Source of the DNA: a virus
IMG/VR virus record: IMGVR_UViG_3300044710_000080
Coordinates: 1 to 64,000 of that record
Reading direction: 5' to 3' (one strand)
DNA length: 64,000 nt
The notes beneath the pieces were generated by a model that ran no database searches, had not been told where the DNA came from, and was given only the letters and a program-made list of their open reading frames with translations. This document shows, piece after piece, positions 27,880 through 62,609 of the stretch. Every line of letters begins with the position of its first letter. The first letter of the stretch is position 1. Position numbers and translations under genes: made by a program.

Positions 27880-27907
27880 ACTATAGGGAAAATTGTCCCG
27901 GTGTCTA
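27880..27907 (-). promoter_or_regulatory. Promoter P1 with conserved spacer operator
   Basis: Minus strand: -35 TAGACA (27907-27902), 16-base spacer containing CGGGACAATTTTCCC, -10 TATAGT (27885-27880). The first three bases of the -35 are the stop codon of the gene at 27905-28237. It should drive the leftward unit from 27843 through the sugar-enzyme and tail genes. Confidence 0.7.
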
Positions 27908-28237
27908 GTGGGTAGTGACCGTAGCGGCCTCGGGCTTGACGCCCATACGGTTTTTCTGGGCGGCCTCAACGGCGAGGGCGCGGACGCGGCCGAGCGTGGC
28001 CTCGAAACCGGATTCGGCCCATCCCGGCTTCTGGCGCATGTCGTCCACGATTTCGGCGAAGATGAGCGCGTCGGGCGGGCGCAGGGCGAGCGACCTTCCA
28101 GCGATGCTCTGGTAGACCCTCCATCCGGTGCCGTGGTCGTAGTGGATGCCGACCTGCAACGCCGACCCCGGCGGGGCGGTCGAGATGTGCAGGAGCCAGC
28201 CCTTGATCTGGAGGAGGCGCTTGCGCTTGCCGCTCAT
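27905..28237 (-). CDS. Hypothetical protein
   Basis: 110 aa, basic N-terminus, a beta-rich middle (HYDHGTGWRVYQSIAG) and a helical end. Its ATG follows the preceding stop directly (TGAATG) and its stop forms part of promoter P1. No family recognised. Confidence 0.65.
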   Translation of the reverse strand: MSGKRKRLLQIKGWLLHISTAPPGSALQVGIHYDHGTGWRVYQSIAGRSLALRPPDALIFAEIVDDMRQKPGWAESGFEATLGRVRALAVEAAQKNRMGVKPEAATVTTH

Positions 28238-28573
28238 TCAGGTCAGGCCTTCGATCTTCCCGTTCGTGACGTGGAAGTGCGCGTTGCATCCGCCGGTGAG
28301 TTGGACCGAACTTGAGCCAGCAACCAGCGTCAGGTCGTCGATCCCGGTCCCGGTCAGGTTCCAGCGCCCCGGTTGCGGCGACACGTCCTGCGGGACTGAG
28401 GGCGACCAGCAAATGACCGAATGCACGCCGATCCCATCTGGATGCCCGAGAAAGCACTTCGGGCAAAGGAACATCACGCCGTCCGCACCCGCAATCACGT
28501 CGCCCACATCTTGAAATGTGTGATGGCTTTCCAGTTTGAGGAACTTCGCCTCTAGCTCGCGGAGTGTCGTCAT
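28238..28573 (-). CDS. DUF6527-like zinc-ribbon protein
   Basis: 111 aa. The pattern MFLCPKC-LGHPDG, WSPSVPQ, RWNLTGTGIDDLTL and a final CNAHFHVTNGKIEGL fits the small DUF6527 family seen near phage and restriction genes. Two Cys and several His could bind zinc. Its role is unknown. The ATG overlaps the stop of the glycosyltransferase before it. Confidence 0.65.
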   Translation of the reverse strand: MTTLRELEAKFLKLESHHTFQDVGDVIAGADGVMFLCPKCFLGHPDGIGVHSVICWSPSVPQDVSPQPGRWNLTGTGIDDLTLVAGSSSVQLTGGCNAHFHVTNGKIEGLT

Positions 28574-29508
28574 GCCGCCACCGCCTTCTTCACCCGCGCC
28601 GGGTCGAGCACCCCGATATGGTCCAGCGCCCGCCCGACGCAGACCTCGGGCGGGAACTTCGCCTTGAACTTCTCGAATTGCGAGGCCCACACCCCGCGCC
28701 AGGCCGCCCGCACCAGCAGGCATTGGCTGTAGAAGCCCTCGATCGTGTCGGAGAATCGCACAACTTCATCCCATGGCTTCGACAGCAAATGCGGCTCCGC
28801 GACCACCGGGCGCCCAAGGCAGAGCGCCGTGTTACATCGGGACGACGATACAAGGCCCATCGATTCGAACTTCCTCACCTGGATGATGACCTTCGCCCGC
28901 CGCATCGTCTCGTCGCGTTCCTGCTGCGTCGCGAAGTCGACCACCAGCCGCACCGCCTTCTCCGTCCCCACCCGCTTCGCCAGCCGCTTCAAGATCGAGT
29001 GCCGCCGCGGTGTGAGCGACCCGTAGAACCCGAACTCGTAGTCCGGCTCCTTGTCGGTGATGCGCACCAGCGTCGGCGCATACCCGAGCTCGATCGGCGC
29101 CGCCGGCGCGAATTGCCCGTACCACTTCGTCACATGCTCGCCTGGCACCAGATGCAGGATCCCCTCGCAATACTTCGCCGCATCCGGGAACCGCTCCTGC
29201 CGGTAGACCATCTCCCGCTGCGTGCCCTGGTTGAAGCCCCGTTCGCTCGGCTCCTCCGTCGCCAGGATGATCCAGCGCGCGCCTTGCTGCGCCGCATTCG
29301 CTACCAGATTAACGCTGTCCTTCGTGAAGCCTTCGACAATGACGTTGATGCCATCGGCCCCGCTGACAAGTTTGGTATTTGAGGCATCCCATACTGCTTT
29401 GTGGCCCAAGGCATTGATTTGATGGCCGAAAATTGCAATTACGTCCTCAAGAGAACGCTGTCCTACTTCACTGTGGTTACCTAAAAAAAAGCAAAATTGT
29501 TGGCCCAT
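28570..29508 (-). CDS. Glycosyltransferase (CgeB/GT4-like)
   Basis: 312 aa. The C-terminal half has the GT-B style acceptor/donor region YEFGFYGSLTPRRHSILKRLAK and MRRAKVIIQVRKFESMGLVSSSRCNTALCLGRPVVAE, resembling CgeB-type glycosyltransferases. The ATG at 29508 shares a base with the stop of the virion gene (TAATG). One of four transferases in the cluster; donor sugar not predictable. Confidence 0.7.
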   Translation of the reverse strand: MGQQFCFFLGNHSEVGQRSLEDVIAIFGHQINALGHKAVWDASNTKLVSGADGINVIVEGFTKDSVNLVANAAQQGARWIILATEEPSERGFNQGTQREMVYRQERFPDAAKYCEGILHLVPGEHVTKWYGQFAPAAPIELGYAPTLVRITDKEPDYEFGFYGSLTPRRHSILKRLAKRVGTEKAVRLVVDFATQQERDETMRRAKVIIQVRKFESMGLVSSSRCNTALCLGRPVVAEPHLLSKPWDEVVRFSDTIEGFYSQCLLVRAAWRGVWASQFEKFKAKFPPEVCVGRALDHIGVLDPARVKKAVAA

Positions 29509-29951
29509 TATTTCACCTCGAAAGCAATAGCATTGATGGTTTCTGAGGTGTGAATCCATGGCTTGTCAAACCCTTTGCGGGCTATCGTCGATGCCTTCAA
29601 CGGTGGGCTCGTGATCGTCGCCACTGATTCGCGAAGCTCGCCGCTGATCTGCTCACCGACCATGGCCATTGCGGGCTTGGCGTCGAAGTCGGTTTGTTTG
29701 AGAGCGGCGGCGACGGCCTCGCCCCACTTCGGGGATTTGGCGGCGATCATGTTGCGAAAGGCGGGCCTGGGCGGCTGGCCGCGCGAGGGCACGCCGTACT
29801 CGGTGAGAGCGGCGCGGAGGGGAATCGACATGCCGTCTGAGCCCGTGGCTCCTTCGAGCCATCCGACCCGGAGGTTTGCGGGCGTGGTGATGTGCTGCGC
29901 GAGCTCGTTCAGCTTTTGCCGCAATTTCTCTCCCCCGCTGATGGTCGCCAT
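29508..29951 (-). CDS. Virion morphogenesis (gp10-like) protein stranded among sugar genes
   Basis: 147 aa. The pattern MIAAKSPKWGEAVAAALKQ, MVGEQISGELRESVATITSPPLKASTIARKGFDKPWIHTSETINAIAF (in parts) is that of a minor head/neck protein of the HK97-gp10 type. Such genes normally sit between head connectors and tail terminator; here it is flanked by a glycosyltransferase and small ORFs. This suggests that the sugar genes were inserted into the head-tail junction region. Confidence 0.7.
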   Translation of the reverse strand: MATISGGEKLRQKLNELAQHITTPANLRVGWLEGATGSDGMSIPLRAALTEYGVPSRGQPPRPAFRNMIAAKSPKWGEAVAAALKQTDFDAKPAMAMVGEQISGELRESVATITSPPLKASTIARKGFDKPWIHTSETINAIAFEVK

Positions 29952-29953
29952 TT

Positions 29954-30055
29954 TCAAAACCCCTGGATACCGAGCAAGTGTAGCAGACCGCAGAGGAAGG
30001 CGATGTAGAGAACTTGCCCGAAGGTGAGGTCGAAGAGGAAGATGGCGTCGCTCAT
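29954..30055 (-). CDS. 33-aa membrane mini-protein
   Basis: Short product with one hydrophobic helix (residues 11-31). It ends right before the virion gene and its ATG overlaps the stop of a tiny upstream frame (ATGA). Function unknown. Confidence 0.45.
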   Translation of the reverse strand: MSDAIFLFDLTFGQVLYIAFLCGLLHLLGIQGF

Positions 30056-30144
30056 CGGGGCATCCGTCCGGCTTTTCTTCCCCGCGTGCCGGACAACGCG
30101 GTTACAAACCTGCGGCGTGAGACAAGTCCAAGGACGCACGGCAT
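30052..30144 (-). CDS. Possible 30-aa basic peptide
   Basis: A short frame that ends in an ATGA overlap with the next mini-gene and has a weak GGAGAG site 11 bases before its ATG. Arg/Lys-rich. The overlap is the only real support; an upstream in-frame ATG at 30216 would overlap the previous gene. Confidence 0.25.
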   Translation of the reverse strand: MPCVLGLVSRRRFVTALSGTRGRKAGRMPR

Positions 30145-30172
30145 CGCTAGATGCTCTCCGCAGGACCGGAAG

Positions 30173-30373
30173 CTAATTGCGCCTCCACCATAGCCTGATG
30201 CCAGGGCGCAAGTCATGATAGGGGCAGTGGGGTTCATCCTCCAAGACCTCAAACTGTTGGCGCCAGAACTCCATCGCCGCGCGCACGAAAGATACCCGAT
30301 AAAGAACCGATCGATTACGCGACCGCGCCATGCGCCTTGTGATAATCTTGTGTGTTGCCGCCAAATTTATCAT
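30173..30373 (-). CDS. Small basic protein
   Basis: 66 aa, Arg-rich, with an aromatic C-terminus (IRLWWRRN). It starts shortly after the stop of the glycosyltransferase at 30387. No family recognised. Confidence 0.5.
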   Translation of the reverse strand: MINLAATHKIITRRMARSRNRSVLYRVSFVRAAMEFWRQQFEVLEDEPHCPYHDLRPGIRLWWRRN

Positions 30374-30386
30374 CCGAATGACTCGC

Positions 30387-31565
30387 TCATCGCAGCCACG
30401 GCAGCGCCCCTTCCGCCTCCTCCAGAGTCTCGTATCGGACAATGCCCGGCCGGTTGCGGTGCGATGGCGTTGCGAGGTCGAGCGAGCCGAGCCGGTGCGG
30501 CACCACGTAGACCCCGCCATCGTAGGAGACAAGGTTCATTGAGCCGACGGTGGCGAGGAGTTGGGGATTCGTCGGGGGCGCGAAGATGGCCCCTCCCGGC
30601 TTCTCCGTCGGGAGGGGCGCGGTTTTATCGTCGGACCCCTGAGGGCTCGTTCGTAGTCCTCCATGCTGCACCACCTCGCTTCCCTGCTGGAGGCCAATTC
30701 GCTCGAAGACTGAGGTCCAGAACGGCCGCGCGGCGTGCCGCTCGAGCATCTTGCCCCGCATCCGCTCCGCCATTTCGCGGTCGGCGTCGCCACGGGAAGG
30801 GGCGGCCCGGATGATCTGCTCTGCGTGGTCGTCGGAGCCATACTCGAGGAAATCGACCCCGGGCTCGAACCACGTCCGCGCCGGCGAGTCACTCGGCTCG
30901 AGCAGGCAGGCCCCGGCGAGCGAGGCCTCGACGAACCGGCCTTTGACGTGCCGCTTCTGGCCGGTGCCGGTCCGAGCGTCGTTGATGACGATCCGGCAAC
31001 CCGAATAGAAGGCGCAGACCTCCGGGTAGGAAACCCATGCCCCCGGGTTGAGCCATACGAGGCCGCTAGATGCGAGTCGCTGCAGGATGGGGGTCCTAGC
31101 ACCCCCACCCCCGCAAAAACCCGCCAGCGTGCCCCGCTGGGGCCAGGGGAGGGGGTTAAACATGCCGGGATCGACCGGGGTGAGCGCCACAAGGCCGAAA
31201 CGGGCGATCGGGTTCTCCCGGGATCCGTCGATTGCGACCTGGAGGCGGAACGCCCCGGCGCGATCGTATTCCTCGAGGAGCGGCCACCAGGGCGGGTCGG
31301 CGGCGTCGGAGCAGATGTGCACCATCGGCGCCACCCCGTTCGCCCGCCAGAGGGCGTCCGTCGTCGGGATCGGGCACCCGTCCTGGTGCGGCATGCAGGC
31401 GCCGATGTAGACGATGACATCCGGGCGGTGCTGCTCGGCGATAGCGCCAACATCGGCGCCGAAGACGTCATACCGGACGACCGCAGTATCGGGGACAACC
31501 GCCGTGAACGAGCGGACGAGTTTTTCAGTGTCGGGCGTTCTTGTAGTGAGGCAAAGGCCCTTCAT
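30387..31565 (-). CDS. Glycosyltransferase (CgeB-like) with C-terminal extra domain
   Basis: 392 aa. Residues 1-300 resemble CgeB-type GT-B enzymes: MVHICSDAADPPWWPLL, FGLVALTPVDPGMFNP, HVKGRFVEASLAGACLLEP and WFEPGVDFLEYGS. The final ~70 residues (NLVSYDGGVYVVPHRLGSLDL) are a small domain also found appended to other glycosyltransferases. It is related to the gene at 32546-33571, with the same acidic pocket and C-terminal ERHAARPFW pattern, suggesting duplication. Confidence 0.75.
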   Translation of the reverse strand: MKGLCLTTRTPDTEKLVRSFTAVVPDTAVVRYDVFGADVGAIAEQHRPDVIVYIGACMPHQDGCPIPTTDALWRANGVAPMVHICSDAADPPWWPLLEEYDRAGAFRLQVAIDGSRENPIARFGLVALTPVDPGMFNPLPWPQRGTLAGFCGGGGARTPILQRLASSGLVWLNPGAWVSYPEVCAFYSGCRIVINDARTGTGQKRHVKGRFVEASLAGACLLEPSDSPARTWFEPGVDFLEYGSDDHAEQIIRAAPSRGDADREMAERMRGKMLERHAARPFWTSVFERIGLQQGSEVVQHGGLRTSPQGSDDKTAPLPTEKPGGAIFAPPTNPQLLATVGSMNLVSYDGGVYVVPHRLGSLDLATPSHRNRPGIVRYETLEEAEGALPWLR

Positions 31566-31741
31566 GATTTTGCTGCTCGTGTGCGAAGGATGATGTTCAA
31601 TCCTTCATCTGAGCACGCACGTTCCGTGAGATCGTTGTAAAGTACCGCCGCCTCATACTGCGATTTGCAGACGACGGTGAAGTGAACCTCACTCAAAATC
31701 ATCGAAATCCGTCCAGCCTGAAATGAGAATGGTTCGCTCAT
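31562..31741 (-). CDS. Small hypothetical protein
   Basis: 59 aa. Start and stop both overlap neighbours by 4 bases (ATGA). One Cys pair, alpha/beta composition. No family recognised. Confidence 0.5.
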   Translation of the reverse strand: MSEPFSFQAGRISMILSEVHFTVVCKSQYEAAVLYNDLTERACSDEGLNIILRTRAAKS

Positions 31742-32007
31742 GCCGTCACCTTTATTGCGGGTGGAGGTGGACGAGGCCGAGACCGCAGCGACCGATCTAC
31801 CCAGAGACGCCCCGGTTCTAAGATCAGGAAACCGGGTATAGGCCGAGCCGTAGGCCCTCTCACTTCGCTGAGACGACATTCGCGCATGAGCCCTTTCCGG
31901 ACCAATGCTTCCCCCGTCTGCCAATTGTCAGGCCAACGGTCAATCCACCCCCGCGGTTCGCGAGCAGCGAAATGCAGCATCTCGCGTTGAGGTGCGCTCA
32001 ACCGCAT
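31738..32007 (-). CDS. Small winged-helix-like protein
   Basis: 89 aa. The N-terminal part (LSAPQREMLHFAAREPRGW, TGEALVRKGLMREC) reads like a helix-turn-helix/winged domain, followed by a Pro/Arg-rich tail. It overlaps the Mom-like gene by 10 bases. Possible regulator; not assigned. Confidence 0.5.
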   Translation of the reverse strand: MRLSAPQREMLHFAAREPRGWIDRWPDNWQTGEALVRKGLMRECRLSEVRGPTARPIPGFLILEPGRLWVDRSLRSRPRPPPPAIKVTA

Positions 32008-32549
32008 AGCTCTGCAAACCGTTTGAATGGCACGCCGCCGGGTTCGCGATATTCAGCCCACGGCCAGCGGCGCAGTATCGATTCGTCCTGAGCTCTGAGT
32101 ATCGCGGTACGCTCGCCGTCCGGAGCGAGTGCGAAAATCCACCGATCCTTGACGCTCTCCTGCTGGCCCTCAGACCATGCGCCGTTGCCAGTAGGCGGTG
32201 GACGAAGGCGATGCCAAGTCGGCGCCCACCACCAATTGCAGGCCCGGTAAAGCGTCCCGGTATGGCCTACCGATGGGTCCGAATAGCTGACGATGGTCGT
32301 CGCATCCGGCCGGATGGCGCGCAACGCGCGCACGAACGCCGCCCATTGTCGGCTGCCGTCGTTGCGGATTCCGCGGATAAGGCACCAGCGCACCAGCTCG
32401 AGCCAGTGGCCGGGAAGCCGACGCGCAGTCGGCGATGCAATCACGATGGCGCCGAACTCGTCCCTCCACGCAACACCGCGATCAACTGCGCCGAGATAGT
32501 GGTTCTCGGCGAGCAGTCCAGCGATTGATCGGCAAGAAGTCCAAGTCAT
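31998..32549 (-). CDS. Mom-like GNAT-fold protein (candidate adenine modification)
   Basis: 183 aa. It matches the Mom-type phage acetyltransferase-fold family in the core ATTIVSYSDPSVGHTGTLYRACNWWW, with a preceding ELVRWCLIRGI helix and an N-terminal HYLGAVDRG. Phage Mu Mom modifies adenine in DNA to escape restriction; here the same role is inferred from the fold motif only. It sits between two glycosyltransferases, with ATGA overlap to the upstream one. Confidence 0.55.
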   Translation of the reverse strand: MTWTSCRSIAGLLAENHYLGAVDRGVAWRDEFGAIVIASPTARRLPGHWLELVRWCLIRGIRNDGSRQWAAFVRALRAIRPDATTIVSYSDPSVGHTGTLYRACNWWWAPTWHRLRPPPTGNGAWSEGQQESVKDRWIFALAPDGERTAILRAQDESILRRWPWAEYREPGGVPFKRFAELCG

Positions 32550-33571
32550 GCCAGCACCTTCATCCCGATCCGCTCCAGCACCTTACCCCAGAACGCGGAG
32601 GGGGAGTGGCGCTCGATGACCTTGCGGCGGAGCGAGAGCGCCATTTTCTGCGCCTCTTCTGGATTCCCTTCAAGCCATTCCAAGCCGCGTCGAATATCGG
32701 AGATTCCTTGATCCGGCCCTTGATAGCAGCGGTAATCTTTGCCCATCTCAAACCACTGACAAGTGGGCGACATTTCATTCTCGAAGAGCACCGCCCCCGC
32801 GAGCGCCGTCTCTATCACCCGCGCCTTGACGTGCATCCGGTCCCCGCTCCCGGTCGCGGCGTGGTTCCAGACGCAACGGCAGGAAGAGAGGAAATCGCGA
32901 TAGCCGGCTTGGCTCGGGTCGGTGTGGTCGCGGTCGCTGATCGTCAGCAGGCCGGCGCCGAGGAGCGAACGGATCGCCGGCGTGCGCGGGTGCAGATAGC
33001 CGCCCGGGGGCGGGTCGCCGAGCTGGTAACTGCCGCGGAAGCCGAGCCGCACCGGCCGCTCCGCCCACGGCCGCGGCGGATCCGGAAACCCGGCGGGGTC
33101 GATCGGGCAGAGCCCCGTCATGCCGAACTCGCCAATCGGCCCATCCCTCACGCCGTCGATGTTGACCTGGAGCGCGAAGCAGCCCGCATCCTGATAGCGC
33201 CGCAGCTGCGGCCACCAGTCGGCCTCCGACCCATCGCAGCACAGGTGCACGAACGGGTGCCGTCGGCCTATCTCGCGGAGCACATCGACATTCGGCATCA
33301 GCGCCCCGCCAGCATCGCAGCAGCCGATCATGAGCACCCAATCCGGCCCCTGCGAATCCACAAGGGCCGGGAGGCGCTCGAAATAGCGATGGTCGGGCAG
33401 AACCTCGATCCCCTCTGCGGAGAATTGCCGCCGGTGCTGCTCGTAATCCCCCGCGTTGTGCACGTTCATGAGGTCATAGACGATGGGCTTGACCTCGTGC
33501 CCGAGGCCGCGCAACGGCTCGTAGATCGGCGGGCAGCTGGTGGAGAATGTCCGGAGGACCGTTACGCGCAT
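32546..33571 (-). CDS. Glycosyltransferase (CgeB-like)
   Basis: 341 aa. It has CgeB-family features: DWVLMIGCCDAGGALMPN, HLCCDGSEADWWPQL, a GFRGSYQLG segment, MHVKARVIETALAGAVLFENE and WFEMGKDYRCY, ending with ERHSPSAFWGKVLERIG. Clearly paralogous to the gene at 30387. No signal or membrane segment, so cytoplasmic. It could glycosylate a virion protein, DNA base or surface polymer. Confidence 0.75.
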   Translation of the reverse strand: MRVTVLRTFSTSCPPIYEPLRGLGHEVKPIVYDLMNVHNAGDYEQHRRQFSAEGIEVLPDHRYFERLPALVDSQGPDWVLMIGCCDAGGALMPNVDVLREIGRRHPFVHLCCDGSEADWWPQLRRYQDAGCFALQVNIDGVRDGPIGEFGMTGLCPIDPAGFPDPPRPWAERPVRLGFRGSYQLGDPPPGGYLHPRTPAIRSLLGAGLLTISDRDHTDPSQAGYRDFLSSCRCVWNHAATGSGDRMHVKARVIETALAGAVLFENEMSPTCQWFEMGKDYRCYQGPDQGISDIRRGLEWLEGNPEEAQKMALSLRRKVIERHSPSAFWGKVLERIGMKVLA

Positions 33572-33840
33572 CAGCCTGTCCCCGCCCGTTCATGTTCGGG
33601 CGCGCCTTGCTCGCCGCCCCACGTTGGACGCACGCCGGTTTCCTGTTCGATGATGTCGCCGACGGCATCGCGCATTATGTCCATAAACGCTTGCTTGCGA
33701 ACCGGATGATCGCGCACGAACGCCATCGCGATCGATCCGAGCCAAAGCGCCCCCTCCATAGTATCTGGCATCGCGTAGTAGGCGTTCCAGTTGTTGCCCT
33801 CTACGCGCAACGAAAGACGACCAATCTGCTGTTTTTTCAT
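33571..33840 (-). CDS. Hypothetical protein
   Basis: 89 aa, mixed alpha/beta with a helical middle (MEGALWLGSIAMAFVRDHP). Overlaps both neighbouring glycosyltransferase genes at start (ATGA) and stop (TGATG). No family recognised. Confidence 0.6.
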   Translation of the reverse strand: MKKQQIGRLSLRVEGNNWNAYYAMPDTMEGALWLGSIAMAFVRDHPVRKQAFMDIMRDAVGDIIEQETGVRPTWGGEQGAPEHERAGTG

Positions 33841-34613
33841 TGCGGCTTCCCCTTCCAGATCGTCCGCGCCCCGGCCGGCAGCATGTCGAGCGGGACATCA
33901 ACGTTGAACCCGCGCAGACTCGTCACGTCATAGCCCGCCCCGTACCGATTCGCCCACCGGGAGAGGAAGAGGGCCATGTCGGCCGCCGTCGTATGGGCTT
34001 CCCCAATCCAGTCAGCACCGCCGCTCAATACTGGCATCTTCCGAGCGTCGTCGGCCAGTACCCGCACCAGCGGCTCGCGCGACCACTCACACCGCCCGCC
34101 CGCGCTCCATACCCGCATCCCGAGATCGCAGTCCGCGAAGCCGACCCGATAGTCCCCAGTGAGCCAGAGGCCACGCGCAGCGTCGCGTCGGCGCATCAGC
34201 GGGAAGTAGGGATAGTAGTTGCCGAAGACGGTCCCGATTCGCAGCGTAAAGGCTTGGCGCAGCCCGAGGCAGAATGGCGATGGCGGGCCGCCTCGGTCTG
34301 CAAACGCGAACTCCCGCGCGAGAAAATTGTCGAGCGCAATCTCATCCCATCCCGGCACGAACTCGTGGTCGTCGACCCAGGCGAGGACGAAGTCACCAGT
34401 CGTCTTTCGCAGCGCAGCCTCATGCGCGGCATTAGCGCCTTCCGAGTCGCCCTCCTTTATCCAGACGACGCGGACGCGCCGGTCGAACTTGAGTGCCGGC
34501 TCGTAAGGGGAAACGACGATGATCTCGACATTGTCGTGCACCGTCGCTCGGATATTGTCGAGCGCGCGCTCCAGCGCGGGCGGGTGCAGGGAAGGGAGGG
34601 TGATCGAGATCAT
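33837..34613 (-). CDS. Family 2 glycosyltransferase
   Basis: 258 aa with the GT-A fold: ITLPSLHPPALERALDNI, VEIIVVSPYEP, a GANAAHEAALRKTTGDFVLAWVDDHEF segment with the DxD-like acidic motif, and later GFADCDLGMRVW. It uses an NDP-sugar donor. It is the second gene after promoter P2 and starts four bases after the mini membrane gene. Confidence 0.8.
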   Translation of the reverse strand: MISITLPSLHPPALERALDNIRATVHDNVEIIVVSPYEPALKFDRRVRVVWIKEGDSEGANAAHEAALRKTTGDFVLAWVDDHEFVPGWDEIALDNFLAREFAFADRGGPPSPFCLGLRQAFTLRIGTVFGNYYPYFPLMRRRDAARGLWLTGDYRVGFADCDLGMRVWSAGGRCEWSREPLVRVLADDARKMPVLSGGADWIGEAHTTAADMALFLSRWANRYGAGYDVTSLRGFNVDVPLDMLPAGARTIWKGKPQ

Positions 34614-34616
34614 CGC

Positions 34617-34760
34617 TCAGCCCAGCGTCGGAGGTCCGGGCAGAATGCCTATTTCTTCGAGCCATATGGTGAAGGCCAAAAGGCCAAAGCTGCAGAGCAA
34701 TATGCTACCCACGAATAGAATGGAGAACAGCAGCGGATGGGCATCTTGAAAGCAGATCAT
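34617..34760 (-). CDS. 47-aa membrane mini-protein, first gene after P2
   Basis: One hydrophobic stretch (about residues 8-35) and a short polar end. A strong AGGAGG ribosome site precedes the ATG. As the first gene of the unit headed by promoter P2 it should be well expressed. Function unknown. Confidence 0.6.
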   Translation of the reverse strand: MICFQDAHPLLFSILFVGSILLCSFGLLAFTIWLEEIGILPGPPTLG

Positions 34761-34784: not shown

Positions 34785-34813
34785 ATCATAAGGGAAAATC
34801 GTCCCCGTGTCTA
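34785..34813 (-). promoter_or_regulatory. Promoter P2 with conserved spacer operator
   Basis: Minus strand: -35 TAGACA (34813-34808), 17-base spacer with GGGGACGATTTTCCC, -10 TATGAT (34790-34785). The TAG of the -35 is also the stop codon of the DUF4054 gene. It should drive the glycosyltransferase/Mom unit. Confidence 0.75.
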
Positions 34814-36598: not shown

Positions 36599-36761
36599 CG
36601 GGAGCTCCTTTTGCTCGTTCCTTGCTGCCCAACCAGTCGATGACCTTCGCGTGCCACCGCTGCGGCAGACCGCCCGACACCATCAGCGTGCGGACCTGAT
36701 TCTCGCCCAACTCCTCGAGCCGGGCGACGACATCGACCTCTTGCGTGGCGACGAGCGGCAT
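36522..36761 (-). CDS. Small protein after the capsid gene
   Basis: 79 aa. The start ATQEVDVVARLEELGENQVRTLMVSGGLPQRW reads as a real helical domain; the tail is disordered (Gly, Asp, Pro). The ATG shares a base with the capsid stop (TGATG). The long overlap with the next gene is unusual for this phage. Confidence 0.55.
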   Translation of the reverse strand: MPLVATQEVDVVARLEELGENQVRTLMVSGGLPQRWHAKVIDWLGSKERAKGAPDGGRQERKDGDGGVQAPPGPDAPAV

Positions 36762-37864
36762 CAGATCCCGATCATCGACGAGATACAGACCGGCATACGG
36801 ACGACCGCACCGAATGTTCCCCCAGTTTGCTTCTGTCTAAAGGCGGACATCGCACGAATGATGGGATGCGCGCGCATGCGCTCGTTGAAGGCGCAGTAGC
36901 CGGTGTCCTGGCCTTCGAGCGTGCGCGCGATCAGCTGCGCGAAGTTGCCGCCTGCAACGCCTTGCGGGTTCGTCGAGGAAAGCACGCCGTACTGGATCGC
37001 GCTCTCGACGGTGAGCCCGGGGAAGTTCTTCTTCAGCAAGTCGGAGACGTTGACGTTGAAGGAGTTCGTCGCGGTCAGCGCGCCCTCGGAGATCGGCGAG
37101 AGTGCGAGCACCATCTTCGTCTCGCGATCGACAAGGCCCGCCGTCTGGTTGACCAGCTGCAGGAACATCGCCTCGATGTCGAGGAAGATTTCGTTCGCGG
37201 TCGCATTGACCGCGGTGCCGACCGTCCAGGCCGTGCCGCCGGCCGCCTTCGTACCGGGGGTCAGGGAGGCCGTGAGCGACGGATCGTTGAGCAGGCCGTA
37301 GTTCTGCAGCCCCTTCACCCCGAACGCATAGGTGAGGTTCTGGAACTTGTTCATCACGGTCGCGGCGGCCTTGTCGACCTCCGAGACCCAGTTGATGCGG
37401 CCGAGGCCGGCGCGCTCGAGTTGGAGCTCGCCGTACTCCTTGACCACCTGGTAGAGGTAGGCTTGGCGCTGGGGCCAGTTCATGTTCACGCCAGCGACGC
37501 CGTTCTCGTTCCAGTCGCCGTAGGACGAGACCTCGCCGGTGTGCTCGACAGTCGGGAACATCACGGTCTGGTCGAGCCAAGTCCCCTTGCGGACCTCGCC
37601 GTAGATTTCCGCGATCTTGTTCGGCGCGAACAGGATCTCGTAAACCGCCGGGTCGATCAGAGTCGTCAGGAACGCCGGGATGCCGGCATTCGGCGACGTA
37701 GTCAGCGTCGGCTGCGCGTCCAGCGCGAGGGTGTAGTCCCTGCGGAACGGTTCGGGCACATAGCCGAACGGTTCCGCGCCATCGACGAAGCTGATCCCTG
37801 CCTCGAAGTAACCGGCCCTGTCGGCATGCCAGGCCGCCCGAGCTTCCTGCAGCGTTCCGTACAT
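36761..37864 (-). CDS. Major capsid protein (DUF2184-type, HK97 fold)
   Basis: 367 aa. DUF2184 features: SPNAGIPAFLTTLIDPAVYEILFAPNKIAEIYGE, FPTVEHTGEVSSYGDWNENG, the E-loop-like KEYGELQLERAGLGRINWVSEVDKAA segment and a C-terminal FNERMRAHPIIRAMSAFRQKQTGGTFG (all in parts). It follows the cement protein and DUF2213 genes, the standard head order. Confidence 0.85.
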   Translation of the reverse strand: MYGTLQEARAAWHADRAGYFEAGISFVDGAEPFGYVPEPFRRDYTLALDAQPTLTTSPNAGIPAFLTTLIDPAVYEILFAPNKIAEIYGEVRKGTWLDQTVMFPTVEHTGEVSSYGDWNENGVAGVNMNWPQRQAYLYQVVKEYGELQLERAGLGRINWVSEVDKAAATVMNKFQNLTYAFGVKGLQNYGLLNDPSLTASLTPGTKAAGGTAWTVGTAVNATANEIFLDIEAMFLQLVNQTAGLVDRETKMVLALSPISEGALTATNSFNVNVSDLLKKNFPGLTVESAIQYGVLSSTNPQGVAGGNFAQLIARTLEGQDTGYCAFNERMRAHPIIRAMSAFRQKQTGGTFGAVVRMPVCISSMIGI

Positions 37865-38888: not shown

Positions 38889-40484
38889 TCAGGCGTGCCG
38901 GATGCGCGCCGCGTTCGGGTGGCGCTTGGCGAAGTCGTTCACCGCAGCCGTATCGACGGCGATCGTCTGTTCCGCGCCGCGGCGGTTCGGCTTCGGCGCG
39001 ATGTCGAACATCGCCTCGTAGGCGGCTGCCGGGACCTTCGCGAGCACATCGTCCTTCACGCCGAGCATCCCCAGGGCGGTCTTGAAGACTTCGGGGGCGC
39101 TGTCGTGCGCAATCGCCAGCTTGCCGAAGAACGGCTCGACCTTGATCTCGGCGGCGCGGACCTCGCGCATCTGCTGCATGGTCGCCTTGCGGGTGTCTTC
39201 CGAGTTCTTGCGCAGCGCGGCATCCATCGCGGTTTTCGTGACCATGTTCTTGTCCTGCGCTCCGCCGGTGTTCGGTTTGCTTTTGAACGGTGGGGGCTCG
39301 TCCTTACCGGCCGTGCGCTCTTTCTCGAGCCGCGCGGCCTTCTCTTCTTCGGTCTCCTCGGACTCTTCCTCGTCCTTGCCGGCGGCCGGATGCATCAGCT
39401 TCACGGCCTCCTCGATCGAGGCGTCGTCCATGCCCTTGCCCTTGAGGAACTCGCGCATCGGCCCTTCGTCGACCGTCGGCTGCTCCTCTTCGGGCTCTTC
39501 GTCCTTCTCGACGAACTCCTTGCCGACCTTCTCGGGAATACCGAGCGTCGAGCTGCCATGCGCTGCGGCTTCCATCGCCTTGTGCTGCGGCTCGGAGACC
39601 GACTCGTCCCCCTGCTCGCCGCCCATGTCCTCGAGCGCGTCGAGCATGTCGACGACGTGGCCGATCTTGGCGTCCTTCGCGAGCGGGACCTTCTTGGGAT
39701 CCTTGAGGAAGGCCAGAATCTTCGGCTTCTCGTCTTTGAAGTTCTTGCGCGTCAGGTCCTTGAACAGCGGCAGGATGTCGATCTTCGCATCCTTGGCGAG
39801 GACCGGACCGAGCGCATGCGCGGTGAGTTGCAGAGCGCGGGCGGCAAAGCGGGTTGCGGGCATCTTCAGGTTCTCCTTCGAGTCGCCGACCACGACGTCC
39901 GGGCCGGCCCTGCCTTCCTCAACTACTGCAGCGTGATTCACGACGATATCGCGCATCACTCCGTCATACGGCTCGCCCTCGTAATCGCCCGGCGTCATAT
40001 CCGCGCGATAGTGGTAGCCCATCGAGATTTCTTTCTGCTCGCCGGAATCGATCGCCTCGATGGCGACCCCACTCCAGACGACCAGGCTGTTGTCGAGATA
40101 CGGCGCGTTGAAGATGCCGTCGGTGCCCGTCGAGCCGATGACGAACTTCTTGACCTTGGCGTCGTAGTCTGGCGCCGTGACGGGGACGTGCTCGCTGAGC
40201 ACAGGCTGATTGTTCGATGTCGCCGCTGCTTTGGCGAGTTCCTGCGGATCGCGCAGCAGCTGATAGACCTTCTTCGGATCGAGCCCGAGCTTCTCCCAAT
40301 CCGGAATCTCCTCCCCGACGTAGGGACAGATATTCGCCTTGCTGATGTGGGTGATTGCGACGTGGAGCCGACCGTCCTTGTCGATAGTGCGGGCCGAACC
40401 CCGGTCCAGCGCGATGACGTTGGCGGCCACTCGTGACCGGCCGGCCGCCTCGTCCATCGCTAGATTGTTCCACGGGATTGGCAA
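38889..40484 (-). CDS. DUF2213-type prohead protease/scaffold
   Basis: 531 aa. The N-terminal ~200 residues match the DUF2213 head-maturation region: DGRLHVAITHISKANICPYVGEEI, QPVLSEHVPVT, VVWSGVAIEAIDSGEQKEISMGYHYRAD. The remainder is Lys/Glu-rich and probably the scaffold part. The start is uncertain: a TTG at 40484 follows an AGGAAG site, and an ATG at 40457 follows a weaker one. Confidence 0.8.
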   Translation of the reverse strand: MPIPWNNLAMDEAAGRSRVAANVIALDRGSARTIDKDGRLHVAITHISKANICPYVGEEIPDWEKLGLDPKKVYQLLRDPQELAKAAATSNNQPVLSEHVPVTAPDYDAKVKKFVIGSTGTDGIFNAPYLDNSLVVWSGVAIEAIDSGEQKEISMGYHYRADMTPGDYEGEPYDGVMRDIVVNHAAVVEEGRAGPDVVVGDSKENLKMPATRFAARALQLTAHALGPVLAKDAKIDILPLFKDLTRKNFKDEKPKILAFLKDPKKVPLAKDAKIGHVVDMLDALEDMGGEQGDESVSEPQHKAMEAAAHGSSTLGIPEKVGKEFVEKDEEPEEEQPTVDEGPMREFLKGKGMDDASIEEAVKLMHPAAGKDEEESEETEEEKAARLEKERTAGKDEPPPFKSKPNTGGAQDKNMVTKTAMDAALRKNSEDTRKATMQQMREVRAAEIKVEPFFGKLAIAHDSAPEVFKTALGMLGVKDDVLAKVPAAAYEAMFDIAPKPNRRGAEQTIAVDTAAVNDFAKRHPNAARIRHA

Positions 40485-49992: not shown

Positions 49993-51243
49993 TCAATGCC
50001 GCGCCCGCACCATCGCCCCGGCCCGGCGCAGGACGGTGTCCGAGATTACAAGCGGCTGGCGGGCGTGGCCCTTATGGAGATGGGCCAGCGCGAGTGCGCA
50101 GACGCAGTCGTCGTGGAACCCGTCTGGGGCGCTGTAGGACACTCCGCTCCCGCGCCGATATTGGTATTCGAACTGCTCGAGCTCGGCAACGATCGGCCCA
50201 TCCGGATAGGTCGTACCGCCGCTCTGGATCACCACGGCGAGATTCTCCATGAGCTTCTGCTTCGAGGCCAGGGTGAACCCGTAGCCCTGGTAGTTCGGCC
50301 GCCCCTTCTGCAGCAGCTCGACGATTGGATCGCCGACGCCCGTCGAGTCGACCAGCGCCGGCGTGGTGCCGACCGCTTGGCGGATCCGGTTCATCGTATC
50401 GTCCCACGGCAGCTGGAACCGTAGGAACCGGCAGACATAGCCGGCAACGTCGAGCCCGATCAGCACCGTCCAGTCAACATGCTTGGCAAGGTCGATGCCC
50501 CAGACCACCGGCGGCTTGGCCGAGAGCGCGTGCACGCACCGCCGGATCGCCTCAAGGCCGAACGGGTTGCCCTCGTCGTCGGACGGCTCGGCGAGGTAGA
50601 GCTCACGGAAGACCCGGTCCGGGAGCATCCGGCGGGCATCGTCGATTTCCTCCTGCTCGAGCACCCCGGCCGCTACCGCGTCCGCCGCCACGATCTTGTG
50701 GTAACCCATCGCCGGGTCACCGGCCTGGGCCCGGCGGGCGAGCATGTACGCCCACGAGCGCCTGCCTTTGACATTTCCGATGATCCGAATCGGCCCCCTA
50801 GTTGCAGTAAGGGTCGATCGAACGGCGTGCCACGCATCTTCTTTTGTGCGGCTGGCCTCATCCATCACAGCGGCATAGACATCCTCTCCGAACAAACTAT
50901 CTGGCTTGTCCGCACTCTTGAACCAGATCACAGTTCCGTTCAAAAGCGTGAGGGTTTTCAAACTCATATGAGGTGCGCACATTCCGCGCGGGAATGCGCG
51001 CAGAGAACGCCGAAAGGCAATATCCGCTTGGCCGCTCACAGGAGCGACCCACCAGTAATTCTGCCCTTCCAGACCCGCGAGAGCCTGTTCGATCAGCCAC
51101 GCGATACTTCCTGAGGTCTTGCCGCTCTTAGTTGAAGCTTCAATAATTGAATATCGATGCGCGTCAAAGATGGCCGCGCGTTGTTTTGGATAAAGGTAGG
51201 GGCGCTCGTATTCGAGCACATGTTCTTCGATGGCGCCGGTCAT
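49993..51243 (-). CDS. terL: Terminase large subunit
   Basis: 416 aa. Walker A at 37-43 (STKSGKT), Walker B with acidic pair D128/E129 in VYAAVMDEAS, a motif III-like GNVKGRR, and the RNase H-like nuclease acids D251 (WGIDLA), D299 (VDSTGVGD) and the DGFHDDCV pair. It cuts and pumps DNA into proheads. Separated from the small subunit by a homing endonuclease; its ATG overlaps that gene's stop (ATGA). Confidence 0.92.
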   Translation of the reverse strand: MTGAIEEHVLEYERPYLYPKQRAAIFDAHRYSIIEASTKSGKTSGSIAWLIEQALAGLEGQNYWWVAPVSGQADIAFRRSLRAFPRGMCAPHMSLKTLTLLNGTVIWFKSADKPDSLFGEDVYAAVMDEASRTKEDAWHAVRSTLTATRGPIRIIGNVKGRRSWAYMLARRAQAGDPAMGYHKIVAADAVAAGVLEQEEIDDARRMLPDRVFRELYLAEPSDDEGNPFGLEAIRRCVHALSAKPPVVWGIDLAKHVDWTVLIGLDVAGYVCRFLRFQLPWDDTMNRIRQAVGTTPALVDSTGVGDPIVELLQKGRPNYQGYGFTLASKQKLMENLAVVIQSGGTTYPDGPIVAELEQFEYQYRRGSGVSYSAPDGFHDDCVCALALAHLHKGHARQPLVISDTVLRRAGAMVRARH

Positions 51244-52454: not shown

Positions 52455-52850
52455 CTATCCGAAAACTGAGTTTTTTGCTACCTTCGTCGCGGCCTGTTGC
52501 AATACCGCCGACCGATGCAAGCGCAATCCGTCGCGGATGGCCTCGATCGCCACTTCTTCGGGCGCCGCGCGACCTCGCAAGGCGAGCAAGCGAACCTCGG
52601 CATCGAGATCGGGAGGAAGATCGAGCATTATCCGGCCGACAGGTTCGACGATGGTGAGTGAGCGGGCTTGGCCTTTGAGGCGAACGACGTGTCCGCGCTC
52701 TTCCAAGGCGCAAACCATTCTGAACACTGTGCTTCTAGACCGGACTTTGAGTTTGCGCGCGATTTCATCGAACGAAGGTGCAACGCCATTTTGGGCAACA
52801 TAGTACCGGACAAAGTCGAGGCAAAGCCGTTGGCCTGTAGTCAAAGCCAT
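52455..52850 (-). CDS. LexA-like winged-helix regulator with extra C-terminal domain
   Basis: 131 aa. Residues 1-70 match the LexA DNA-binding domain: LTTGQRLCLDFVRYYVAQNGVAPSFDEIARKL, STVFRMVCALEERGHVVR and ARSLTIVEP. The LexA peptidase part is missing. Residues 74-113 (MLDLPPDLDAEVRLLALR, EEVAIEAIRDGL) look like a ribbon-helix-helix or small helical domain. A promoter with the conserved spacer core lies directly upstream, so self-control is possible. An ATG at 52904 would add 18 residues on a nearly leaderless mRNA. Confidence 0.75.
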   Translation of the reverse strand: MALTTGQRLCLDFVRYYVAQNGVAPSFDEIARKLKVRSRSTVFRMVCALEERGHVVRLKGQARSLTIVEPVGRIMLDLPPDLDAEVRLLALRGRAAPEEVAIEAIRDGLRLHRSAVLQQAATKVAKNSVFG

Positions 52851-52912
52851 GGGCTCGGGCCGGGAGAGCGGATACAGGCGGCGACGATGATGCGCGTATG
52901 TCATGGACGCTT

Positions 52913-52941
52913 ATCCTATCGGGAAAATTCTCCCCGCGCTA
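52913..52941 (-). promoter_or_regulatory. Promoter P4 with conserved spacer operator
   Basis: Minus strand: -35 TAGCGC (52941-52936), 17-base spacer with GGGGAGAATTTTCCC, -10 TAGGAT (52918-52913). It should drive the LexA-like regulator, TerS, TerL and portal. The core differs from consensus at two positions. Confidence 0.65.
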
Positions 52942-53371: not shown

Positions 53372-53630
53372 GATTCCGTGCGGCTGCTGGACGGATTGCC
53401 GGGCGATTTGCGCCGACCATGCGCCGGACTGTGGCAGGAAAGTCGCACCCCGCACAATCTTCGTGATACCCGAAGATTCCTCTTGCATTTGGGGACGATT
53501 TTCCCTACTTTCGATCCTGCGCCCGGCTGGTTTCCGTTCGGGCTCAAGTGCGCAAACAAAAAGTTGTCTGAGGCGCGCGCGAAAAGAGACGCAACATGAC
53601 CGCGATCATTGGCCGCCGCATCGCCCCTGA
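53349..53630 (+). CDS. Possible Cys-rich small protein
   Basis: 93 aa at most. The start has a convincing metal-type pattern (CGCWTDCRAICADHAPDC), but the frame then runs straight through promoter P5 and overlaps the next gene by 35 bases. Either only the first half matters or it is chance. Confidence 0.25.
   Translation: MKTRPPHRIPCGCWTDCRAICADHAPDCGRKVAPRTIFVIPEDSSCIWGRFSLLSILRPAGFRSGSSAQTKSCLRRARKETQHDRDHWPPHRP
53483..53511 (+). promoter_or_regulatory. Promoter P5 with conserved spacer operator
   Basis: Plus strand: -35 TTGCAT (53483-53488), 17-base spacer with GGGGACGATTTTCCC, -10 TACTTT (53506-53511), followed by CGATCCTGCG, which is also found after P6. It drives the plus-strand operon 53596-55305. 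Confidence 0.7.
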
Positions 53631-53820
53631 ACTGATCATCATCAACGGAGAACCGTGCACCAAAACGATCGCCCGCAAAGCTGCAACATGCGTCACGTCG
53701 CGTAAACCGATCAAGCCCGGTGATTTGGTCTATCGGCCGCTCGGAAATTCGAGCACGCGCTCGGCTCGATACTTAGCTTCGGAAATCGAGGCTATCGAAA
53801 CGCAGGGAGCCAATCCATGA
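53596..53820 (+). CDS. Small protein, first gene after P5
   Basis: 74 aa, basic and beta-rich (ELIIINGEPCTKTIARKAATC, KPGDLVYRPLG), possibly a small nucleic-acid-binding fold with two Cys. Ends in an ATGA overlap. No family recognised. Confidence 0.6.
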   Translation: MTAIIGRRIAPELIIINGEPCTKTIARKAATCVTSRKPIKPGDLVYRPLGNSSTRSARYLASEIEAIETQGANP

Positions 53821-54004
53821 CCCTCGCCTATCCCCTGCTCGGACCAGCCATCCCGTCCGCATCGAGTTCGCGACCGAGGAGTTCTTCTCGACCGACCTCA
53901 AGCGACTCCGGGTCGAGGAGAACGCCATCGTCGGCCGGACGTACTTCCTGAAACGCGGCCGCATCGTCGCGGTCGCAATCCCAACCGAAGGAGAACGAGC
54001 ATGA
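53817..54004 (+). pseudogene. Apparently frameshifted small gene
   Basis: The ATG at 53817 overlaps the previous stop (ATGA) and opens MTLAYP. After a CCCC run (53832-53835) the sensible reading continues in the -1 frame as HPVRIEFATEEFFSTDLKRL... to the stop at 54004, which overlaps the next ATG. In the original frame the product is Ser/Arg-rich nonsense. A missing C, a true mutation or a -1 frameshift could explain it; about 62 aa if joined. Confidence 0.5.
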
Positions 54005-54645
54005 GCCTGATCCCCTACGCCGGTTCGCCCGCACTGAATGCGGCCAAGGCGGACGACTTGACCATCCCGGATTACCTCAAGCGCAGCCCGGACGACCCGC
54101 CTTCCGCAATCAAGGCGCCTGCGAAGCCGGCCGAGGCGACCACCACCAAGGCTCTCCAGGACGAGGCCAAGACCGCCAAGTCGCGCGGCCGGATCGCCAA
54201 GATGAAGGCGAAGCAGAACGGCGAACTCGCGAAGATGCCCCTCACCGGGAAGGCCGCGCTCGAGGCCATCAACGCGGCAGACCCGAAGCCGGGCAAGCTC
54301 CCCGTCCCGCCCCCGAGCGCCAAGCAGGACCGCGCCAAGGCGAAGGACAAGCCGAAACCGGCGCCGAAGGACAAGCCAGCGGGCCAGCGCAAGCCACCGG
54401 CTGCGAAAAAGGCGGCGAAAGCACCCAAGGCGCCCAAATCGGCAAACCGCACCAGCGAGCCCCGCTCGGGCTCCAAGACGGCAATGGCCGCCGACCTCAT
54501 CCGCCGCTCGGGCGGTTGCACCACGGCCGACATCCTTAAGGCGACCGGCTGGCCGGCGGTGTCGGTCCCGGCGATCGCCCGCGCGTCGGGCATCAAGCTC
54601 GCGAAGGAAAAGGACGGGTCGGTGACCCGCTACCGGGCGGAGTGA
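54001..54645 (+). CDS. Lys/Ala/Pro-rich protein with DUF3489-like end
   Basis: 214 aa. Residues 30-155 are low-complexity and strongly basic. The last ~55 residues (KTAMAADLIRRSGGCTTADILKATGWPAVSVPAIARASG, in part) resemble the DUF3489 winged-helix. It could be a DNA-binding, histone-like protein. Confidence 0.65.
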   Translation: MSLIPYAGSPALNAAKADDLTIPDYLKRSPDDPPSAIKAPAKPAEATTTKALQDEAKTAKSRGRIAKMKAKQNGELAKMPLTGKAALEAINAADPKPGKLPVPPPSAKQDRAKAKDKPKPAPKDKPAGQRKPPAAKKAAKAPKAPKSANRTSEPRSGSKTAMAADLIRRSGGCTTADILKATGWPAVSVPAIARASGIKLAKEKDGSVTRYRAE

Positions 54646-54872
54646 TGGGCAACAAGGGCACGTTCGATCTACCTCGCACGCCGAGCCAATCCACGCGCGG
54701 CGCCCGCAATGCCTATCGGGCGATATGGGGCCGGGATTGGCCCCATGACGACGATTACTTGCGTATCCTCGCAAATGAGGTCGACCAGAAAAACCCGCAA
54801 GGCAGCGGCAAGCGGTGCGACCACCTGCTGATGCGGATGCGCGAGAATCACGTCTTCGAAGAGAGCGCCTGA
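54645..54872 (+). CDS. Small hypothetical protein
   Basis: 75 aa. Starts in a TGATG overlap. DWPHDDDYLRILANEVDQKNPQGSGKRCDHLL suggests a helical domain. No family recognised. Confidence 0.55.
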   Translation: MGNKGTFDLPRTPSQSTRGARNAYRAIWGRDWPHDDDYLRILANEVDQKNPQGSGKRCDHLLMRMRENHVFEESA

Positions 54873-55096
54873 TGAGCACCGGACGACGAATCAGCCGCAA
54901 GGGCCGCGCGCCCAAGACGACCCTGCAGTCCTTGCGGTATTCCTACGCGGTGGCGAACCGGCAAGCCTCCGACCTGATCCGGGCATTCCGCGACAATCCG
55001 ATGGCCCTGCTCGACCTGCAGGGTGAGATCGAGCGCGGAGCCGACCGCGCGAACGCTATCGCCATGCGCGCCAACAGCAAGGCGAACCGGAGTTGA
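54872..55096 (+). CDS. Small basic protein
   Basis: 74 aa, basic N-terminus and a helical remainder (RQASDLIRAFRDNPMALLDLQGEIERGADRA, in part). TGATG overlap with the upstream gene. No family recognised. Confidence 0.55.
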   Translation: MSTGRRISRKGRAPKTTLQSLRYSYAVANRQASDLIRAFRDNPMALLDLQGEIERGADRANAIAMRANSKANRS

Positions 55097-55098
55097 GG

Positions 55099-55305
55099 AT
55101 GGGCCGCGGCGAATCCATTCTCGCTTTCGTGCGGCACCGTCTCGACGAAGGGACGGCGTCGCCCGAGGCGATCTGGCGGGAGGCGCAAGCCGCGTTCCCG
55201 CACCGTTGCGTGTCCTGGGGCTACGTCGCGCAAATCCGCCTGGACTGGATCGACGCCAATATCGCTCGGCAGCGGCTCGCCGAACTGGACGCCGACCACC
55301 GTTAG
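55099..55305 (+). CDS. Small winged-helix-like protein
   Basis: 68 aa. ESILAFVRHRLDEG, SPEAIWREAQAAFPHRCVSWGYVAQIRLDW reads like a small HTH domain. Last gene of the P5 operon; its stop overlaps the end of the converging methyltransferase gene. Confidence 0.55.
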   Translation: MGRGESILAFVRHRLDEGTASPEAIWREAQAAFPHRCVSWGYVAQIRLDWIDANIARQRLAELDADHR

Positions 55306-59674: not shown

Positions 59675-59738
59675 GCCTAAGCCGGATTCGGGGACGGGTT
59701 CCAGCCGCTACGGGTTGATTGCCGAGGAGGCGAAGGCG

Positions 59739-61425: not shown

Positions 61426-61445
61426 GTTCGTCCTCCTCGGTTGCC

Positions 61446-61682: not shown

Positions 61683-61921
61683 CAGTTTACCCCTGGAACA
61701 TCTGCCGGTTCGACGATAAAGGCCGGCCCTTTCTGCGGGCATTCGATCCAGCCGCCGAAGAGGCCGTCCCCGTAGGACTTATCGACACTGCACCATCGCA
61801 ACTCGCCTTGGCGGTCGCGCCCCCAAGAAACCCGCTTGAGCGTAAATCCATCCCAGCAGGACGCGATGATCCAGCGCCCATCTTTCGGTGCCGTTTCCCA
61901 TGGCTCCCAGCGCATCGTCAT
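61682..61921 (-). CDS. Small Trp-rich protein
   Basis: 79 aa. EPWETAPKDGRWIIASCWDG at the start is a widespread pattern in phage and bacterial small proteins of unknown role. ATGA overlap with the upstream gene. Confidence 0.6.
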   Translation of the reverse strand: MTMRWEPWETAPKDGRWIIASCWDGFTLKRVSWGRDRQGELRWCSVDKSYGDGLFGGWIECPQKGPAFIVEPADVPGVN

Positions 61922-62187
61922 TCCTGCGGGTTCCGCCCCATGAAGACCGGCCGCGTCGCCGGCCACCGAGCATCTTCCGGCCACTTAGCCCGGATTGAGG
62001 CAAGCATGGTTTCGAGCTTGTCGGCGCCGATCGACGGCCAGTCGTCCCGCTTCGGGCTTTTCAGGTCCCGGAAGAATGTCGCGTTGCCGTAAAATTCCTT
62101 GCTCGCCTGGGTCAGGCTCTTGCCGGTCGCGTGGCAGTAGGCCGCGACGATGGCGAGGAGGTTTTCGCGGATGATGCGAGCGCTCAT
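61918..62187 (-). CDS. HTH regulator-like protein
   Basis: 89 aa. ENLLAIVAAYCHATGKSLTQASKEFYGNATFFRDL reads like a Cro/CI-type helix-turn-helix. It is the second gene of the unit driven from 62.5 kb and could be an early regulator. Confidence 0.6.
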   Translation of the reverse strand: MSARIIRENLLAIVAAYCHATGKSLTQASKEFYGNATFFRDLKSPKRDDWPSIGADKLETMLASIRAKWPEDARWPATRPVFMGRNPQE

Positions 62188-62489
62188 AGAAAATCGTCCC
62201 GCAGTTCCATCATACCATCGGGCTTGATGACCGCGACGGCATTGTCCCATCTCGGCGCGGCTTCTGTCATGAACCGGGCATCCTTTTCGCGCAGGACATA
62301 GACATCCTCGCCCTGCTCGCGGGCCAAGCGCGCCAGTTCGGAAGCATCTGCGGTAAGGTCAAGATCGCCGAACCAGATTTTGCCCTTTGACCGGATGAGG
62401 ACATTGGCATTGAAAACGCAGATATGCCCCTTCGGGGCTGTCTTGGAACTCGAAATCATCCGACCGGGACTGGTAAAGTCAATTGGCAT
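62184..62489 (-). CDS. First gene of the early minus-strand unit
   Basis: 101 aa, beta-rich (GHICVFNANVLIRSKGKIWFGDLDLTADASELARLAREQ, in part). A GGAGGTGC ribosome site precedes the ATG. No family recognised. Confidence 0.6.
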   Translation of the reverse strand: MPIDFTSPGRMISSSKTAPKGHICVFNANVLIRSKGKIWFGDLDLTADASELARLAREQGEDVYVLREKDARFMTEAAPRWDNAVAVIKPDGMMELRDDFL

Positions 62490-62509
62490 GACGCACCTCC
62501 GCTTGGGGA

Positions 62510-62538
62510 TTTGTATCCCTCTCGGCCCTTCGCGTCTA
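62510..62538 (-). promoter_or_regulatory. Promoter of the early minus-strand unit
   Basis: Minus strand: -35 TAGACG (62538-62533), 17-base spacer, -10 TACAAA (62515-62510). The spacer lacks the GGGGACGATTTTCCC core. It diverges from P6. Confidence 0.55.
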
Positions 62539-62580
62539 GCCCTTGGGGTGGCCGTCAACAGAATAGCAGGCGGTGGGGCC

Positions 62581-62609
62581 TAGACAGCGGGACGATTTTC
62601 CCCTAGTCT
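62581..62609 (+). promoter_or_regulatory. Promoter P6 with conserved spacer operator
   Basis: Plus strand: -35 TAGACA (62581-62586), 17-base spacer with CGGGACGATTTTCCC, -10 TAGTCT (62604-62609), followed by CGATCCTGCG as at P5. It drives the plus-strand genes from 62707. Confidence 0.75.

Follow-up and report, generated by a model that had tools for sequence, protein, structure and literature searches.

A 14-bp dyad within six promoter spacers of an uncultured tailed phage, with a truncated LexA as candidate regulator

Six promoter-like sites in the virus record IMGVR_UViG_3300044710_000080 (75,025 bases, possibly incomplete; bases 1-64,000 make up the window considered here) carry the same short imperfect dyad between their -35 and -10 elements. 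We propose that a single regulator encoded by the phage uses these sites as its operators, most likely a truncated LexA protein encoded at 52455-52904 on the minus strand, a reading drawn from sequence and structure prediction that we hold with belief and doubt about evenly balanced. Genes were called on the whole record with a simple codon model, and both start codons and transcription starts are predictions. The six sites, each with its hexamers, its spacer length and the putative operator lying in the spacer, are as follows.

27880-27907, minus strand: site 1, TAGACA-16-TATAGT, putative operator GGGACAATTTTCCC at 27886-27899
34785-34813, minus strand: site 2, TAGACA-17-TATGAT, putative operator GGGACGATTTTCCC at 34792-34805
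48194-48221, minus strand: site 3, TTGACG-17-TAAGCG with a weak -10, putative operator GGGACGATTTTCCC at 48200-48213
52913-52941, minus strand: site 4, TAGCGC-17-TAGGAT with a weak -35, putative operator GGGAGAATTTTCCC at 52921-52934
53483-53511, plus strand: site 5, TTGCAT-17-TACTTT, putative operator GGGACGATTTTCCC at 53492-53505
62581-62609, plus strand: site 6, TAGACA-17-TAGTCT, putative operator GGGACGATTTTCCC at 62589-62602

The sites were first described in an earlier note on this DNA as carrying GGGGACGATTTTCCC or a variant of it with one or two changed bases, and all six are present (6/6). That note read the shared block as a 15-base core with the symmetry GGG-N-A-N5-T-N-CCC, which needs correction: the first G of the 15-mer is a C at two sites, so that the GGG-N-A / T-N-CCC symmetry is broken, and the true dyad is 14 bp long, GGGA-N2-AT-N2-TCCC. 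The minimal element common to the six sites is GGGA[C/G][G/A]ATTTTCCC, in which the half toward the -10, ATTTTCCC, is invariant in 6/6 and variation is restricted to two bases of the opposite half. Its orientation relative to the promoter is constant at all six sites.

Equal frequency inside genes and in shuffled sequence, which the earlier note had named among the outcomes that would refute its reading, is not what a search of the whole record returned. The pattern GGGANNATNNTCCC has 6 matches in the record against a mean of 0.11 per dinucleotide shuffle, a tighter form of the core has a mean of 0.0 in such shuffles, and the reversed pattern, used as a control, has no match in the whole record. 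All six copies are intergenic, none falling within a gene, and each precedes a start codon on its own strand by 17-105 bp, a placement with a chance of p=0.034 for each at random position and strand and of ~1.5e-9 for the six together. In four alphaproteobacterial genomes, totalling 15.8 Mb, GGGANNATNNTCCC has ten matches, and the tighter core is present in 38 of 385 alphaproteobacterial genomes with a maximum of two per genome, a set that may not include the host. Hence neither composition nor, as far as tested, a host regulon explains the motif. Beyond the core and the hexamers, similarity among the flanks is mostly near background, and since the flanks are otherwise unrelated, the core is not a copied or duplicated element. 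One further copy, GGGACGATTTTCTA at 62187-62200 on the minus strand, overlaps the ATG of the gene at 61918-62187 on the same strand; its score lies inside the range of shuffle maxima, and it is a possible, unproven, degenerate seventh operator.

The flanking hexamers fit sigma70-type promoters, apparently strong at three sites and weak at three. They match the sigma70-type consensus at 10, 10, 7, 6, 6 and 8 of 12 positions for sites 1 to 6, so that sites 3, 4 and 5 (7, 6 and 6) are weak promoters on paper, whereas sites 1 and 2 are the top two sigma70-type matches (10/12) across 26-45 kb. The summed -35/-10 score around the six cores was equalled in 0 of 200,000 random draws. Downstream of the -10, site 1 is followed by a ribosome-binding site and an ATG (27843), and site 2 by AGGAGG and an ATG. 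The distance from core to -10, described in the earlier note as the same at all sites, does agree within 2 bp but is not constant: the core ends 0, 1, 1, 2, 0 and 1 bp before the -10 of sites 1 to 6, and it starts two bases past the -35 at four sites with a one-base shift at the remaining two. An offset that varies by 2 bp argues for an overlaid operator and against an element read by RNA polymerase. Taken together, enrichment, intergenic position, promoter context, dyad symmetry and absence from host-type genomes give good indirect support, short of proof, to the claim of the earlier note that one regulator acts phage-wide with the core as its operator.

That note named no regulator. Two proteins predicted to contain a winged helix are encoded directly below sites 4 and 3, of which the truncated LexA at site 4 appears to fit best.

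52455-52904, minus strand: candidate regulator, a truncated LexA of 149 aa (Pfam LexA_DNA_bind, 1.9e-11), the first gene ahead of the small-terminase-like, TerL and portal genes
47881-48105, minus strand: FtsK-gamma-only protein of 74 aa (Pfam FtsK_gamma, 1.5e-12), a winged helix directly below site 3

The truncated LexA consists of a winged helix DNA-binding domain and has no peptidase domain. An AF2 model built with 20 phage homologues (pLDDT 86) matches DNA-bound E. coli LexA (3JSP), with 68 residues superposed at 1.0 A, and Foldseek likewise places the candidate as a LexA winged helix; a single-sequence model was poor (pLDDT 58) and was not used. Two helices are predicted at the C-terminus in the AF2 model. 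A Pfam scan of this C-terminus alone gave no match, and homologues with an alignable C-terminus have a sub-threshold match to Pfam RHH_1 (6.9e-4 in locus L207). From these homologues and the two-helix model, it is plausible, if weakly supported, that the C-terminus is a ribbon-helix-helix-like (RHH-like) dimerisation segment. Within the short phage LexA-domain family (viral loci L183-L261), an RHH-like C-terminal segment also occurs in L196, L197, L200, L207, L211, L213 and L235.

The LexA/SOS box of alphaproteobacteria is GTTC-N7-GTTC. The candidate shares with alphaproteobacterial LexA a LexA-type winged helix able to occlude sigma70 promoters, but the putative operator here is GGGA-N6-TCCC, and the record holds a single GTTC-N7-GTTC box, at 38558, away from all six sites. 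The recognition helix, SRSTVFRM, is divergent and differs at several positions from the SKSGVHRL type common in the relatives used, which agrees with an operator other than GTTC-N7-GTTC. Because the candidate has no cleavable peptidase domain, it would receive no direct SOS input. Its start codon lies 8 nt past the -10 of site 4, so that the transcript from this site would be leaderless or nearly so; an alternative start at 52850 corresponds to the usual start of the homologues.

In the mechanism that we propose, each operator lies within the spacer of a promoter of sigma70 type that host RNA polymerase would use, and a dimer of the truncated LexA, perhaps held together by its two-helix C-terminus, would bind the 14-bp dyad through its LexA-type winged helix. 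A dimer between -35 and -10 normally excludes polymerase, which makes a repressor the default reading: the bound dimer would cover the -35 to -10 region and block host polymerase. Six units would then be silenced or timed together during infection, presumably the early recombination operon, a second early unit on the plus strand and the accessory blocks that interrupt the structural cluster, and the regulator's own gene would be among them, giving negative autoregulation.

Site 1 heads the gene at 27613-27843 on the minus strand and the accessory block below it, with an aminotransferase and a nucleotide-sugar epimerase further downstream, and site 2 heads a small membrane protein gene (34617-34760, minus strand) together with glycosyltransferase-like genes. 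Site 3 lies immediately after the portal gene, and the block that it heads encodes the FtsK-gamma protein along with a MazG-like and a queuine tRNA-ribosyltransferase-like protein. Below site 4 come the truncated-LexA gene and then the small-terminase-like, TerL and portal genes. Site 5 heads a second unit on the plus strand (53596-55305), and site 6 a long early operon that runs rightward on the plus strand, from 62707 to 71389 of the record, and includes an Erf annealase and a YqaJ/RecE-type exonuclease. From their gene content, these units seem to be non-structural modules of early or accessory type, site 4 excepted. An 11-mer, TCGATCCTGCG, occurs in exactly two copies in the record, at 53511-53521 and 62609-62619 on the plus strand, both beginning at the last -10 base of sites 5 and 6, that is, in the initially transcribed region.

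Known systems offer partial parallels, and the statement in the earlier note that no named system has this layout was too strong. In SPbeta, a 15-bp repeat, SPBRE, lies at about ten dispersed promoters and is bound by one master repressor, MrpR (PMC10516654). The present case resembles it in that one motif of ~15 bp recurs at several promoter regions throughout the genome, and in that the motif is essentially confined to the phage when compared with the alphaproteobacterial genomes searched, which may not include the host. MrpR, however, has a tyrosine-recombinase fold, for which the record has no PF00589 match, and the motif here is, unlike SPBRE, a dyad inside the promoter spacer in a phage with no sign of lysogeny. 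Cluster A mycobacteriophages such as L5 have more than 20 dispersed 13-bp repressor sites, the stoperators (PMC9283540, PMC6550527), which likewise keep a constant orientation relative to transcription; in these, a monomer binds an asymmetric 13-mer, and many of the 20-odd or more copies in a genome have no promoter, whereas the record has six near-palindromes, all with promoter elements. Membership thus fails on the recombinase-fold repressor for SPbeta and on the asymmetric site for the stoperators, so that the phage belongs to neither class. The third parallel concerns the protein. In the tectivirus GIL01, the truncated LexA gp6 binds a 14-bp palindrome at -43.5 and activates the late promoter P3 (PMC6182141; we compared gp6 through this published description, not its sequence). 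Both are phage proteins with a LexA DNA-binding domain and no peptidase, and the candidate may bind the 14-bp dyad present in its own promoter, much as gp6 binds its palindrome. In contrast to gp6, which acts at one late promoter from a class II activator position, the dyad here lies at six promoters between -35 and -10, differs in sequence, and is accompanied by an extra two-helix C-terminus in the candidate. The layout, which is that of SPbeta and in a looser sense that of the L5 stoperators, works like a dispersed-operator regulon, probably one run by the truncated LexA.

Relatives of the phage and of the protein were searched for the same arrangement. The search in related phages that the earlier note had proposed was carried out, and it did not extend the motif, which is absent from 23 other virus records, namely all 22 terminase relatives and one record with a weak LexA match. 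In a Pfam scan of 14 terminase relatives, the LexA-domain and the FtsK-gamma proteins were both absent; relatives with neither protein and without the motif fit either candidate and hence do not discriminate between them. The promoter-context pattern run over all viral contigs gave 13 matches, one per record and in unrelated contexts, which look like chance and were set aside. Truncated LexA proteins themselves are widespread in viral contigs (80 loci kept), most of them best matching PHROG families without known function, and plasmid matches to the candidate are mostly alphaproteobacterial. In a second phage group (L251, L254 and L255), several GTTTAAAC dyads immediately precede the truncated-LexA gene; L255 carries 16 copies of GTTTAAAC in 16.5 kb against 0.4 expected (Poisson p ~3e-20), three of them upstream of that gene, and these dyads may form a parallel regulon. 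Across the truncated-LexA loci, many repeated dyads are paired operators close to early regions, which another repressor probably binds, and these were not taken as support. As a sanity check, SOS boxes upstream of other phage truncated-LexA genes were found only at L191 and L218, which encode longer LexA-like proteins.

Several results weigh against the truncated LexA as the repressor of all six sites. Viral contigs, the 385 genomes, and phage and plasmid records yielded no close relative of it, the matches being only host LexA or distant truncated LexA proteins, and most other truncated-LexA loci have no repeated dyad upstream of the gene. The candidate gene heads structural genes, which is odd for a repressor that silences itself, unless a separate promoter serves the late genes. 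The FtsK-gamma gene also lies directly downstream of a site and is equally absent from the 14 terminase relatives. The only truncated LexA in the systems compared, gp6, activates and does not repress.

The main rival binder for the same operators is the FtsK-gamma-only protein, in which a KOPS-type winged helix would have become a promoter repressor; we regard this as unlikely. Its domain match and its place directly behind site 3 speak for it, the KOPS sequence GGGNAGGG is G-rich like the operator, and in our own alignment the KOPS-critical positions R1300 and E1306 are retained (residues from PMC2680272). In that alignment, however, E1303, which is required for KOPS recognition (PMC2680272), is a G, so that one of three needed residues is lost; the target of FtsK gamma is a directional, non-palindromic 8-mer, whereas the operator is a dyad. 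GGGNAGGG is absent from all six cores. FtsK-gamma relatives were not found in viral contigs or phage records, and a literature search turned up no paper on a phage FtsK-gamma repressor.

A regulator bound at the six sites could also be an activator, or play a dual role, helping polymerase at the weak promoters of sites 3-5, for instance for the late operon from site 4. Half of the promoters do have poor hexamers (6-7/12), site 4 is the one evident start ahead of the terminase and portal genes, and gp6 of GIL01 sets the precedent of a truncated LexA that is a proven activator at P3 (PMC6182141). Sites 1 and 2, whose hexamers are close to consensus, require no activator. Moreover, the operator sits in the spacer, centred near -20, where a dimer normally excludes polymerase, whereas gp6 binds at -43.5, and MerR-type activation involves spacers of 19-20 bp, longer than the 16-17 bp found here. 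A promoter element and a MerR-type activator are both disfavoured by the varying offset together with the hexamers of sites 1 and 2, and activation strikes us as improbable.

It is less probable still that the conserved block is a promoter determinant for an alternative sigma factor or a phage RNA polymerase, even with its orientation fixed in 6/6 and CTWG partly conserved at the -35 position, for its distance to the -10 is not fixed but differs by up to 2 bp, sites 1 and 2 would be good sigma70 promoters even if the core were ignored, its dyad form is typical of sites for dimeric binders, and a polymerase or sigma gene was not recognised among the subset of genes scanned. That the sites belong to the regulon of a hijacked host regulator is very improbable: phages often rely on host regulators; no result here supports such a role, and the genome counts given above speak against it, with the caveat that the host may lie outside the set.

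Returning to the truncated LexA, a bolder version would make it, with its RHH-like dimerisation segment, a global regulator of a large phage that, through a private spacer dyad, would switch off all early and accessory units at once and, at its own weak promoter (site 4), govern the passage to the late operon, one of a widespread class of phage LexA-domain proteins each with its own dyad (such as GTTTAAAC of L251, L254 and L255); as a whole we consider this doubtful. If the proposal of a truncated-LexA operator set is true, sequence alone has yielded a regulon for an uncultured phage that is explicit and can be tested, and a large class of small phage LexA-domain proteins gains a role. A truncated LexA would then be seen to act genome-wide and not at a single promoter, through an operator that resembles no SOS box, and there would be one more independent case of a phage genome governed by one set of dispersed operators.

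Judged by its genes, the record is a tailed phage. Gene calls and profile scans place the following genes.

49993-51243, minus strand: terminase (TerL)
48218-49933, minus strand: portal
38889-40484, minus strand: head protease
36761-37864, minus strand: major head protein
13556-15028, minus strand: tape measure

Its early-type region encodes a helicase, RusA and two methyltransferases besides the Erf annealase and the YqaJ/RecE-type exonuclease; the absence of a PF00589 match extends to tyrosine integrases in the record. Within the structural region, a large accessory block (window 22170-34613, minus strand) contains epimerase, aminotransferase, glycosyltransferase-like and E1-dehydrogenase-like genes, which suggests surface-glycan modification. 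Inside the early operon lies a gene for an M50 (site-2-protease type) membrane peptidase (record 64064-64978, plus strand), and a tandem pair of small PAS-domain proteins (record 72615-73459, minus strand) is encoded beside an outer-membrane-like protein (record 73609-74517). In one of the terminase relatives, G002, a different intergenic word, TATACTTATAGGTTAG, and its variants are repeated on both strands, at 27473, 37856, 39965, 44670 and 63974, the copy at 27473 being the palindrome TAACCT-N3-AGGTTA.

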